Below are positions 8,694 through 44,972 of a stretch of 64,000 nucleotides of DNA, one piece after another; the stretch's first letter is position 1; every line of letters begins with the position of its first letter. The notes under the pieces are model-generated. The model was not told the origin of the DNA and made no database searches. It was given only the letters and a program-made list of their open reading frames with translations. The stretch covers positions 62,001-126,000 of the forward strand of contig JABAKE010000006.1 of the NCBI GenBank assembly GCA_019779905.1, in the 5' to 3' direction. The stretch is from Modestobacter lapidis. GTDB taxonomy: Bacteria; Actinomycetota; Actinomycetes; Mycobacteriales; Geodermatophilaceae. Made by a program: the position numbers and the translations under genes.

Positions 8694-9773
8694 ATGGGAT
8701 CGGTCAAGGTCGCCGTCGTCGGCGTCGGGAACTGCGCAGCCTCGCTGGTCCAGGGGGTGCACTACTACCGGGACGCCGACGAGACGCAGTCGGTGCCCGG
8801 GCTCATGCACGTGCGGTTCGGCGAGTACCACGTGTCCGACATCCAGTTCGTCGCCGCGTTCGACGTCGACGCCAAGAAGGTCGGCCGTGACCTCTCCGAG
8901 GCCATCGTCGCCAGCGAGAACAACACCATCTCGATCACCGACGTCCCGCCGCTCGGCGTGACCGTCCAGCGCGGCACCACCCTCGACGGCCTGGGCAGGT
9001 ACTACCGGGAGACGATCGAGGAATCCGACGACGAGCCGGTCGACGTCGTCGCCGCGCTGCGCGAGTCCGGCGCCGACGTCCTGGTCTGCTACCTGCCCGT
9101 CGGCTCGCAGCAGGCGGCGGAGTTCTACGCCCAGTGCGCGATCGACGCGCAGGTGGCCTTCGTCAACGCGCTGCCGGTGTTCATCGCCGGCACGCCCGCC
9201 TGGGCGCAGAAGTTCACCGACGCCGGCGTCCCGATCGTCGGTGACGACATCAAGAGCCAGGTCGGCGCCACCATCACCCACCGGGTGCTGGCCAAGCTGT
9301 TCGAGGACCGCGGCGTGCAGCTCGACCGCACGATGCAGCTCAACGTCGGCGGCAACATGGACTTCAAGAACATGCTCGAGCGGGAGCGCCTGGAGTCCAA
9401 GAAGATCTCCAAGACCCAGTCGGTCACCAGCCAGGTCGACCGGGACATGGGCGCCGGCAACGTGCACATCGGCCCGTCGGACCACGTGCCGTGGCTGTCG
9501 GACCGCAAGTGGGCCTACGTCCGGCTCGAGGGCCGCGCGTTCGGCGACGTGCCGTTGAGCCTGGAGTACAAGCTCGAGGTCTGGGACTCCCCGAACTCGG
9601 CCGGCATCATCATCGACGCCGTCCGCGCCGCGAAGATCGCCAAGGACCGCGGCATCGGCGGCCCGATCCTGTCGGCGTCGTCCTACTTCATGAAGAGCCC
9701 GCCGGTGCAGTACGACGACAACCAGGCGCGCGACTCCGTCGAGGCCTTCATCCGCGGCGACATCGAGCGCTAG
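8694..9773 (+). CDS. ino1: myo-Inositol-1-phosphate synthase
   Basis: Converts glucose 6-phosphate to inositol 1-phosphate with NAD, the first step to phosphatidylinositol, mycothiol and related lipids. The 359-residue protein has the NAD-binding [18 protein letters not shown] at its start, then [53 protein letters not shown] and [20 protein letters not shown]. The ATG at 8694 has AGGAGGAGGA immediately upstream. A second ATG at 8643 overlaps the padR stop and would add 17 residues. Co-transcription with padR is likely. The stop is followed at once by a hairpin repeat. Confidence 0.96.
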
Positions 9774-9876
9774 GCCTCCCTGCAGGGTCCCGCCGCGAGC
9801 TTGCGAGGGGTGGGGGGAAGGGAGGTCCTTCCCCCCGCCCCGAGCTTGCGAGGGGCGGGGGGCAGGGAGGTCCTTC
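9773..9876 (-). repeat. Post-stop hairpin repeat, copy A, with a partial duplication
   Basis: Reverse-oriented member of the dispersed hairpin family, beginning with the G of the ino1 stop codon. On the minus strand it reads GGACCTCCCTGCCCCCCGCC, a second internal copy of the 5' half, then CTGCAGGGAGGCC. The outer arms CCTCCCTG/CAGGGAGG pair. The 5' module is duplicated in tandem, making this copy about 104 bp instead of 56. Confidence 0.75.
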
Positions 9877-9891
9877 TCCTAGTGTGGGGGC

Positions 9892-10668
9892 ATGCCGCAG
9901 CGCCGCCCCCCACTGCTCGTGCTGGCCCTGCTGGTGGTGCTGGCCCTGGTGGCCGGCTGCAGCGGCGGGACCGACGACGAGCGCGTTCCCGGCGACCCGG
10001 TCAGCGAGGCCGAGGCCGAGGTGCTGTCCGAAGTGCTCCACCGGAACTTCGAGGTCGGTGGCGCGGACTTCGTGGTCACCGCGCCCTACGCCGAGGGAGC
10101 GGTGCTCACCCTCACCGGAGAGGTCGACTTCCGTCGCGGGACGGGCCGGGCCCAGGCCGTGACCGAGTACGCCGACGGGCGCCCGGCCGAGACCCGCACC
10201 CTGTTCTTCACCGGCTCGGACATCTGGTTCGGCGACGTGCCGGGGCTGGCCGAGGAGCTGGCGGCCGCCGGCCTGCCCGAGGCGGCCTACGTCCGCCGGC
10301 CGATCGCCGCGACCGGTGCCTCGGGCACCGCATCGCTCATCGACGTGCTCGTCCAGATGGTGCCGCGGCTGTCCGCCCGCAGCGCGGACGACCCGCGCTC
10401 GTTCCCCGCGAACGGCTACACCTGGCAGGGGACGCGGTCGGTCAACGGGGAGCTGGGCTCGGTGTTCCGCAGCGGCGACGGGGCGACGATCACCGTCGGG
10501 GCCGAGGACCGGCTGCTGCTGCAGTACGTCACGCGGCTGGCCGACCAGGAGTTCGACGTGACCATCACGCTCACCGACCACGGGGAGCGGGAGATCGGGC
10601 CGCCGGCCGACGAGGAGACCCTCGACGCCACCGCGCACCCGGAGGTCGCCGCGGCGGTCGGGGTGTGA
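9892..10668 (+). CDS. Putative lipoprotein, possibly LppX/LprAFG-like
   Basis: A 258-residue secreted protein. MPQRRPPLLVLALLVVLALV is followed by AGC and Ser/Gly, a classical lipobox with the acylated Cys at residue 23. The mature part alternates beta-type stretches (AVLTLTGEVDFRRGTGRAQA, TLFFTGSDIWFGD, DVTITLTDHGE), which recalls the LppX/LprAFG fold, but the resemblance is weak. TAGTGT lies 6 nt before the ATG, suggesting a leaderless mRNA whose -10 box sits right at the end of the preceding repeat. Role unknown; it probably sits on the outer face of the membrane. Confidence 0.7.
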   Translation: MPQRRPPLLVLALLVVLALVAGCSGGTDDERVPGDPVSEAEAEVLSEVLHRNFEVGGADFVVTAPYAEGAVLTLTGEVDFRRGTGRAQAVTEYADGRPAETRTLFFTGSDIWFGDVPGLAEELAAAGLPEAAYVRRPIAATGASGTASLIDVLVQMVPRLSARSADDPRSFPANGYTWQGTRSVNGELGSVFRSGDGATITVGAEDRLLLQYVTRLADQEFDVTITLTDHGEREIGPPADEETLDATAHPEVAAAVGV

Positions 10669-10671
10669 GGG

Positions 10672-42570: not shown

Positions 42571-42590
42571 CCGGTTCCACGTGGAACCGG
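42571..42590. promoter_or_regulatory. parS site upstream of gyrB
   Basis: CCGGTTCCACGTGGAACCGG is a perfect 20-bp palindrome with GTTCCACGTGGAAC at its centre. It lies 5 nt after the ABC exporter stop. The rest of the 300-bp spacer to gyrB shows no gene; a TACGCT box at 42758-42763 may be part of the gyrB promoter. Confidence 0.87.
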
Positions 42591-42868
42591 GCGGGGTCCG
42601 CCCGTGGCGGCCGGCCCGACGATCTCACGGCAGGCCCCCAGCGGTCCGAGGACGGCGTGTCGACCGCGAGGGCAACCCGGGTGGTGGCTCGTGTGCCGGG
42701 AGAGGCTCTGGCGCGACGTGAGGGCGTGGACGGCGAGGTTCTGTCGTCCCGACCCGGTACGCTGGAGGTGACACACCGCCAGCAGCCCGCTGAGAGCCGC
42801 TCTGCGCCCCGCCGACATCGCCGTCGGTACCGCGCGCCGGCTGCGGCTGCGCGACAGAAGGGCCCCAC

Positions 42869-44914
42869 GTGGTCGCACGACCCAGCACCCCCGCAGCGCA
42901 GAACGCCTACTCCGGCAGCTCCATCACCGTCCTCGAGGGGCTCGAGGCGGTCCGCAAGCGCCCCGGTATGTACATCGGGTCCACCGGCGAGCGCGGCCTG
43001 CACCACATGGTCTGGGAGGTCGTGGACAACGCCGTCGACGAGGCGCTGGCCGGTTACTGCGACACCGTCAGGGTCACCCTGCTGGCCGACGGCGGGGTGC
43101 GGGTCGAGGACAACGGCCGTGGCTTCCCGGTCGACATGCACCCGGTGGAGAAGCGGCCCACCCTCGAGGTGATCATGACCGTGCTGCACGCCGGCGGGAA
43201 GTTCGACGGCAAGAGCTACGGCGTCTCCGGCGGGCTGCACGGCGTCGGCGTCACCGTGGTCAACGCGCTCTCCAAGCGGCTCGAGGTGAACGTCTGGCGC
43301 GACGGCGCCGAGTGGTTCCAGCGCTACGACGTGGCCAAGCCCGGCCCGCTGGAGGAGATCGGCCGCACCGACAAGCGCGGCTCGGCGGTCACCTTCTGGG
43401 CCGACGAGGACATCTTCGAGACGACGCACTACTCCTTCGACACGATCAACCGCCGGCTGCAGGAGATGGCCTTCCTCAACAAGGGCCTGACCATCATCCT
43501 GCGCGACGAGCGCCCCGGTCAGGGCAAGGCCGACACCGGCCTGGCCGAGGAGACCTCGCTCGCCGAGGAGGCCCCGGCCCCCGGTCACGAGAACGAGGCC
43601 TTCGAGCCGACCGAGGTCGCCTACCGCTACGAGCAGGGCCTGGTCGACTACGTCACCTACATCAACCGGCGCAAGAGCCCGATCCACCGCTCGGTGATCA
43701 GCTTCTCCGCGGACGGCACCGGCAAGAACGACACGGCGATGTCCCTCGAGGTCGCCATGCAGTGGTCGGACGCCTACTCCGAGTCGGTGCACACCTTCGC
43801 CAACATCATCAACACCCACGAGGGCGGCACCCACGAGGAGGGCTTCCGCGCGGCGCTGACCTCGATCGTCAACCGCTACGCGGTGGACAAGAAGATCCTC
43901 AAGGAGAAGGACGACAAGCTCACCGGCGACGACATCCGCGAGGGTCTCGCCGCGATCGTCTCGGTGAAGCTGGGCGACCCGCAGTTCGAGGGCCAGACCA
44001 AGACCAAGCTCGGCAACACCGAGGTCAAGGGCTTCGTCCAGAAGGTCTGCAACGACCAGATCAGCCACTGGTTCGAGGCCAACCCGGCCGAGGCCAAGGT
44101 GATCATCACCAAGGCCGCGTCGGCCGCCCGCGCCCGGCGCGCGGCGCAGGACGCCCGCAAGCTGGCCCGCAAGAATCTGCTGAGCAACAACTCGCTGCCG
44201 GGCAAGCTGGCCGACTGCCGCTCCAGCGACCCGCGCAACTCCGAGGTCTACATCGTCGAGGGCGACTCGGCCGGCGGCTCGGCGAAGTCCGGCCGCGACT
44301 CGATGTTCCAGGCGATCCTGCCGATCCGCGGGAAGATCATCAACGTCGAGAAGGCGCGCATCGACCGGGTGCTGAAGAACACCGAGGTCCAGTCGATGAT
44401 CACCGCCTTCGGCACCGGCATCCACGACGAGTTCGACGTCAGCAAGCTGCGCTATCACAAGATCGTGCTGATGGCCGACGCCGACGTCGACGGCCAGCAC
44501 ATCCGCACCCTGCTGCTGACCCTGCTGTTCCGCTTCATGCGCCCGCTGGTCGAGGAGGGCTACGTCTACCTGGCGCAGCCACCGCTGTACAAGATCAAGT
44601 GGGGTGGCAAGGTCGGTGACGAGTACGTCTACACCGACAAGGAGCGCGACGCCGTCCTCAAGGCCGGCGCCGAGGCCGGGCGCAAGCTGCCCAAGGACGA
44701 CGCCATCCAGCGGTTCAAGGGCCTGGGCGAGATGGACGCCAAGGAGCTGTGGGAGACCACGATGAACCCCGACAGCCGGATCCTGCTCCAGGTCACCCTC
44801 GAGGACGCCGCCGCCGCCGACGAGCTGTTCAGCATCCTCATGGGCGAGGACGTCGTCGCCCGCCGCAGCTTCATCACCCGCAACGCCAAGGACGTCCGGT
44901 TCCTGGACGTGTAA
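42869..44914 (+). CDS. gyrB: DNA gyrase subunit B
   Basis: ATPase subunit of gyrase. The 681-residue protein has the GHKL fold ([64 protein letters not shown]) and the TOPRIM domain ([40 protein letters not shown]). The C-terminal [20 protein letters not shown] is intact. It begins at a GTG. Position 43540-43610 encodes a short acidic insert ([16 protein letters not shown]). It is followed by a hairpin repeat and gyrA, presumably as one unit. Confidence 0.97.
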
Positions 44915-44915
44915 A

Positions 44916-44972
44916 GGACCCCCTCGCCCCCCACACCTCGCTCCGCTCGGCGCGGGCCCCTGCGAGGGGGCC
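44916..44972 (+). repeat. Post-stop hairpin repeat, copy G
   Basis: Fifty-seven bases starting 1 nt after the gyrB stop, with arms CCCCCTCG/CGAGGGGG. The central sequence differs (CTCGCTCCGCTCGG) from the CTCGCAGGCTCGCGG type but keeps the same layout. Confidence 0.8.

Follow-up and report, generated by a model that had tools for sequence, protein, structure and literature searches.

A probable REP-like mobile hairpin family seated at stop codons in Modestobacter lapidis and other Geodermatophilaceae

Why should one small hairpin recur directly behind the stop codons of seven genes? The question is raised by a stretch of 64,000 nt from Modestobacter lapidis (GenBank assembly GCA_019779905.1, contig JABAKE010000006.1, positions 62,001 to 126,000 of the forward strand), hereafter the window, in which copies of a hairpin of about 56 nt adjoin the stops of ino1, trxB, trxA, dnaA, dnaN, gnd and gyrB. 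A first-pass annotation of the window had offered two readings, a post-transcriptional 3'-end element or a mobile unit, similar to the repetitive extragenic palindromes (REPs), that targets gene ends. We conclude that the hairpin is probably a non-autonomous, REP-like mobile palindrome family of the Geodermatophilaceae, seated at stop codons; an RNA role for the repeat is possible. The second reading is thus supported: the repeat is dispersed, keeps a fixed register to stop codons and prefers certain targets, it occurs in nested copies, varies between strains and interrupts one gene. No Y1 transposase was detected in 57 genomes of the family. REP-like repeats are common; how some of them move without a known transposase, and why they gather at gene ends, are general questions on which the family bears.

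The scan of the genome and its relatives proposed with the first-pass annotation was run with a repeat model, R1, and revealed a dispersed, family-wide repeat that prefers stops. In the 4.78-Mb genome (383 contigs) it gave 159 matches at E<=1, a lower bound since 150 of 5676 first-look candidates were scored. The DnaN protein of the window has its best matches, up to 96%, in named Modestobacter records. Placement was read from the window and 40 further stretches of the same genome (of 60 planned), 498 kb in all, in which a custom codon-usage gene caller found 510 genes. These stretches hold 143 matches, and removal of 22 that were tandem-secondary or shorter than 50 nt left 121 primary copies. 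The 5' end lies 0–12 nt past a called stop in 92 of the 121 and the 3' end −3 to 12 nt from a stop in 18, so that a stop adjoins at least one end in 99, compared with 10.3% for random intergenic placement. At these stops 81 copies are forward only, 7 inverted only and 11 both, while 22 adjoin none; only 3 copies fall inside called genes.

The flanking genes are oriented ++ for 50 copies, −− for 26, +− for 42 and −+ for 2, and one copy lies at the end of a stretch. Co-directional gaps of up to 25 nt net of the element are filled in 2 of 106 cases and wider ones in 68 of 232, convergent gaps in 34 of 70 (two stops each) and divergent gaps in 2 of 61, these absolute rates being inflated by the selection of the stretches. 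The element is rare in tight operon gaps and, per stop, shows no preference for convergent over wide co-directional ends. Where a gap has at least 60 nt to spare, a stop still adjoins 15 of the 19 copies in convergent gaps and 41 of the 52 in co-directional ones, with expectations of 4.8 and 5.6. Thus, avoidance of genes and promoters is not sufficient to explain the placement. The family resembles REPs in the broad sense, with many dispersed intergenic palindromes lying mainly downstream of genes and in few divergent gaps.

The register of the hairpin to the stop is precise. TGA precedes GGACC at +4 in 59 copies and at +5 in one, and TAG at +5 in eight and at +4 in none (p=1.2e-9). Expressed differently, the G of the stop stands at −6 in 67 of the 78 copies linked to TGA or TAG within 5 nt and at −3 in eight (six TGA+1, two TAG+2); the ten TAA-linked copies are scattered over 0 to 5 nt. 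The register tracks the G of the stop, whereas a ribosome rule would hold the distance from the end of the stop, and the anchor therefore looks DNA-based. The target also has a preferred context, with a C before TGA at 52 of 59 filled stops compared with 210 of the 352 remaining TGA stops that were called (p=1.4e-5). With a family-wide and large data set, this DNA-level register (G of TGA/TAG at −6) can separate targeting from later selection.

Does the hairpin bring the stop with it? The tetramer at −6 to −3 changes with the host stop codon, and in the 22 copies remote from called stops the GAA before GGACC is the only well-conserved part of that flank; TGA is therefore no constant component of the element. 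We rejected the idea that the element always brings its own TGA, since the stop-remote copies show none. Moreover, 94 of the 121 copies contain no stop codon in any of the six frames; an open frame therefore exists through most copies, and in these the stop must derive from the flank or the extreme end of the element. Inverted copies meet stops as TAA abutting GGCC, or share the final base of TAG. Blastococcus dnaA loci, read by eye, end in TAG in 8 of 9 cases and TAA in 1 of 9 where a forward copy is present, compared with 11 TGA, 7 TAG and 2 TAA among 20 loci lacking one. At locus L164 of genome G128 the filled gene is shortened by two codons, its TAG lying at the 5' end of the element. Thus, the element can supply the stop.

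The consensus reads GGACC, about five variable bases, GC, CCCCCC, an inner stem, TCGC-NN-GCTCG, the returning inner stem, GGG, N, CCCTGC, the complement of the variable bases and GGCC. The core, 5'-GAA-GGACC-arm-...-arm'-GGCC-3', spans about 60 nt. Unpaired features include a bulged A in GGACC, kept in 108 of 121 copies, and an asymmetric internal loop whose 3' side is present in 109 copies by a loose pattern and 101 by a strict one. A minority carry a 16-nt 3' tail, GTTCCAGCACGTCACC (37826-37841, after the gnd copy), which with up to three mismatches follows 6 of the 121 copies and 26 of the 150 best matches of a scan that includes the window, and which may be the remainder of a longer ancestral form. 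A second subtype of about 54 nt, with the arm CCCCGTCC, is intermixed with the main type.

Pairing of the variable outer stem is largely retained. In the seven window copies 76 of 77 cells (98.7%) pair, and 5 of 11 outer pairs have changed on both sides. The first-pass claim that the opposite arm always changes to pair holds except for one pair of the ino1 copy, in which CTT stands at a place that is paired in the other copies. In a shuffling test of the covariation, none of 500 shuffles reached the seven-copy score. The own-genome alignment of 133 distinct rows, which was fitted to the model and is biased towards it, has 96.4% of the outer stem paired, 280 double-change cells compared with 74 after shuffling, and a covariation score of 0.292 compared with 0.092 shuffled and at most 0.084 slid. 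By direct count over the 121 copies, 93.5% of the nine outer-stem pairs form, compared with 75.5% when arms are reassigned; 74 copies pair without a mismatch and 34 with a single one. The 121 copies combine 42 distinct arms with 94 distinct middles in many combinations.

We next consider range and turnover. The repeat was matched in 101 of 112 Geodermatophilaceae genomes and 9 of 12 genera. A first search of relatives matched 23 of 39 genomes, the own genome counted, and 0 of 16 outside the family; an order-wide search matched 53 of 298, of which three, each with one or two copies, belong to other families. These extra-family matches (G167, G176 and G251; L201-L203, L205 and L206) comprise five hits, one near the end of a 21-kb contig, two on contigs below 6 kb and two at one end of an 89-kb contig, and represent either contamination or transfer. 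Two near-complete family genomes have no match (G039) or one weak match (G067), and the element is therefore dispensable there. Isolates of the family have reportedly been the subject of a BOX-PCR (polymerase chain reaction) study.

Comparison of two syntenic strains, G128 and G129, read by eye with matching flanks 89–99% identical, indicates turnover. We queried 7 of the 12 copies listed for G129 C1 and all 16 listed for G128 C2; of these 23, three had no matching flanks, two had flanks far apart and one was a duplicate query, leaving 17 sites. At 11 of the 17 the full copy is absent from the other strain, at least two of the 11 being clear remnants, and the six shared sites include four with altered structure or arms. 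At L165:1068139 the stop is followed by a new copy and then by the 3' half of an older one, in the G129 counterpart of L167 a subtype-B copy replaces the old 5' arm, and at L169:1288006 the outer arms and inner strands have changed together, as have the adjoining stops. Further nested copies lie at L072, L118:17464 and L151:1801. In L147 (1730-2553) a MerR/TipAS regulator gene is broken by three hairpin copies, two of them inverted; the MerR domain matches profile positions 1-21 of 38 as far as the first hairpin, and TipAS follows the three copies.

Filling was also counted at four sites of the named loci. Forward and inverted copies, respectively, were found at dnaN in 26 and 6 of 80, at gnd in 28 and 3 of 80, at dnaA in 12 and 4 of 78 and at gyrB in 22 and 2 of 43, counts that include twice one genome held in two records (L065 and L066). 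These same-site counts rest on the best 150 of 159 matches of the scan that includes the window.

Could selection at the RNA level produce these patterns? The hairpin would then be a 3'-end element selected for mRNA stability, termination or ribosome release, with selection keeping both place and pairing, an alternative that we consider unlikely. It would suit the strong forward bias (81 forward-only, 7 inverted-only), the pairing retained despite sequence change, and the low occupancy of divergent and tight co-directional gaps relative to wider ones, and E. coli REPs located no more than 15 nt from a stop are reported to stall ribosomes (PMC12306157). It sits poorly with G039 and G067, with the 11 of 17 sites lacking a full copy in a near strain, with a register tied to the G of the stop and not its end, and with the per-stop evenness between wide co-directional and convergent gaps, which a terminator need not show. 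None of the 121 copies has a T-rich tail on its own strand, so they do not have the form of intrinsic terminators; a short T-rich stretch on the opposite strand after 11 of 121 counts in favour of an RNA role. Rfam returned only two tRNAs in the window and no family near the gathering cut-off for the trxB and trxA copies.

The covariation itself has a further possible source. Two gyrB loci, L041 and L042, have flanks 98% identical and the next 40 nt 95% identical, whereas the element is 78% identical; L042 retains the internal loop, which in the L041 copy has become part of a perfect palindrome. The L041 change bears the mark of quasi-palindrome repair of the template-switch type, and such events have been proposed to create compensatory changes in RNA hairpins (PMC8794818). 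The first-pass inference that covariation means a selected structure is therefore weakened: the covariation is strong, but repair as in L041 offers another origin for it. More generally, near-perfect covariation among repeats need not signal a selected RNA.

Can such repair account for the family as a whole? The corresponding alternative dispenses with a transposase and lets the hairpins, which would stall polymerases at gene ends, spread and be rewritten through template switching during replication and through ectopic copying from one hairpin to another. Besides L041 and the precedent proposed for RNA hairpins, nested and composite copies that have lost part of the old copy and the reassortment of arms and middles speak for it. 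However, it leaves unexplained how copies first reached many unrelated stops in one fixed register, and we regard it as improbable. Among 198 same-site pairs, a set that omits only the pair L065-L066 and counts other L066 pairs twice, both sides had changed at 386 arm positions and a single side at 269; the one-sided changes show that compensation is far from complete. The bulged A and the loop, which repair would erase, persist in most copies, so repair alone is insufficient, and recognition of the unpaired features is the likelier explanation of their persistence. Wholesale replacement of copies at shared sites was considered and set aside: 12 of 17 pairs with both flanks at least 93% identical (L066 dropped entirely) had element identity below 85%, but in a control of 16 pairs chosen from the top of the list the 40 nt beside the element were even more divergent (median 62% compared with 78%), which leaves L041/L042 as the only clean case.

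The first-pass annotation had suggested looking for a REP-associated tyrosine transposase (RAYT). PF01797, the RAYT/IS200-type Y1 transposase family, was found in 0 of 57 family genomes, with controls positive in 5 of 14, and no such gene thus came to light; one 66-nt query each against a phage and a plasmid collection gave no match. That the repeat is a canonical GTAG REP of a RAYT system, its RAYT lost, acting from elsewhere or too diverged, is very unlikely, for although the 3'-end placement, the convergent and co-directional gaps and the TAG supplied by the repeat end match PMC3733652 and some copies read GTAGAAGGACC, the PF01797 search was negative, the tetramer at −6 to −3 follows the stop codon of the host gene and the 22 stop-remote copies conserve only GAA well.

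We propose that the REP-like mobile palindrome spreads within its genome, the most likely mobile form being a folded single-strand hairpin. It would be recognised by its unpaired features, the bulged A in GGACC/GGCC, the asymmetric internal loop and the TCGC apex, and not by arm sequence, and would depend on an enzyme for its movement. It would land at stop codons, preferably CT(GA) or TA(G), where its first bases restore or supply the stop and leave the host gene intact, and copies would survive through tolerance and not benefit. The more specific scheme, in which the hairpin takes the translation stop as its landing site, rebuilds a stop codon on either strand from its own ends, is exchanged as a cassette at gene ends and relies on a class of enzyme so far without a link to REP-like repeats, is offered tentatively.

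Several points weigh against mobility and stop targeting. The stretches were picked around high-scoring matches, and 93 of the 127 copies outside the window were targeted in this way; the gene calls are home-made. No transposase was found for the repeat, PF01797 being negative in 57 family genomes. Identical copies are scarce among the 121, a single sequence occurring three times and another twice, which gives no sign of a recent burst. The G128/G129 pair, examined for this purpose, yielded neither a clean pre-insertion site nor a target duplication; several apparently empty sites are remnants or diverged, and because some are deletion remnants, losses are better visible than gains. Finally, at least four of the 22 stop-remote copies show TGA or TAG in the usual register by eye and may follow genes missed by the caller, but about 14 copies are truly remote from stops, mostly without an upstream TGA or TAG, and a DNA motif cannot account for all copies.

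In the open-access literature searched, the closest kind is the GTAG/CGTC REPs. GTAG REPs lie at gene ends, with TAG often supplied by repeat termini (Di Nocera 2013, PMC3733652). Like GTAG and CGTC REPs, the Geodermatophilaceae repeats are small high-copy palindromes, mostly downstream of and between convergent or co-directional open reading frames, with some inside genes, and CGTC REPs also apparently have no dedicated transposase (PMC3733652). Those REPs are 20-40 bp, whereas the present repeat is 56-60 nt with a fixed internal loop, has no fixed GTAG or CGTC tag at the foot of the palindrome and, in the searches made, is nearly limited to one actinobacterial family; for those REPs the accessible text of PMC3733652 reports no register set by the G of the stop. 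Unlike RAYT-mobilised REPs, it comes with no RAYT detectable with PF01797 in the 57 family genomes. New here is a REP-like family that has no detectable RAYT and whose stop register is anchored in DNA; REP-like repeats as such are known.

E. coli REPs likewise form hairpins directly behind stops; of 4,072 that were predicted, 446 have a stop no more than 15 nt away, and an older study cited in the same paper gives 260 of 496 (PMC12306157), compared with 92 of 121 copies beginning within 12 nt here. Mycobacterial interspersed repetitive units (MIRUs) are also small actinobacterial repeats that enter gene junctions without destroying the gene, but they insert at start codons with their open reading frame coupled to the gene (PMC12548453), whereas the present repeat lies behind stops and in 2 of 106 tight co-directional gaps. 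Template-switch-maintained hairpins share compensatory multi-base arm changes with our repeat, where one clear correction event is seen, but are a concept for RNA genes and not a repeat family (PMC8794818). Two papers that came up in open-access searches for the repeat in this family, PMC9686282 and PMC3035280, deal with CRISPR, chemistry and assembly in their accessible passages.

In the window, all seven copies were confirmed at the positions first annotated, five forward and two inverted, with GGACC...GGCC ends and a centre of CCCCCC and CTCGC. Genes were named by Pfam (ino1, trxB, trxA, dnaA, dnaN, gnd, a RecF-like protein and gyrA), and gyrB by its location and the earlier annotation. The described spacing of 0–5 nt after the stop applies to six copies; the ino1 copy (9773-9828, − strand, inverted relative to the gene, 77.7 bits) instead overlaps its TAG (9771-9773) by 1 nt. 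Beside it lies a truncated tandem copy (9834-9878, −) comprising the 5' arm and apical hairpin with a period of 45, the partial match spanning 9834-9859. The trxB copy (22187-22242, +, arm CCCCGCTGC, 78.7 bits) and the trxA copy (22617-22672, +, arm CCTGCCTGC, 83.6 bits) each follow TGA by 4 nt. The separate terminator described after trxA is visible by eye as an inverted repeat, but none was found there in a T-tract terminator scan. The dnaA copy (34871-34926, −, arm CCCCGTCGC, 80.4 bits) is inverted and 0 nt from TAA, and the dnaN copy (36738-36793, +, arm CCCTCCTGC, 84.1 bits) follows TAG by 5 nt in the TAGTAGAA register.

The gnd copy (37770-37825, +, arm CCCCCGTGC, 76.5 bits) follows TGA by 4 nt and runs into the 3' tail; its 3' half and tail form a tandem array of 5 x 45 nt (37798-38021, +). 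The gyrB copy (44916-44972, +, arm CCCCCTCGC, 67.7 bits) lies 1 nt after TAA. An eighth, weak copy, which belongs to subtype B (GGACCCCGTCC...GGACGGGGCC), was found at 7948-8000 (−, 42.2 bits) with no called stop adjoining. In Geodermatophilaceae genomes the repeat may interfere with the annotation of gene ends, with Term-seq and with screens for structured RNA.

Tandem arrays of the element with a period of about 53-54 occur elsewhere in the genome (L155, L157, L135, L129 and L123), and the last three share a junction of GGCC with TGACC. In L131, a 1529-nt direct duplication (14418-15946 and 16759-18287, 99.7% identical) carries a camelysin-family gene and its neighbour, with a hairpin copy at each start; we rejected this copy pair as an insertion sequence, as it is a 1.5-kb gene duplication. 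Within the window, 48966-62984 is a probable integrated element, in which an exact repeat of the last 43 nt of tRNA-Ala (its 3' part, 48997-49039) lies at 62942-62984, and which contains an integrase (48977-50191), a TrwC relaxase/helicase (50740-54399), an AAA protein and a DNA methylase. Directly upstream of tRNA-Ile, a 56-nt unit is repeated 2.2 times (48469-48591).

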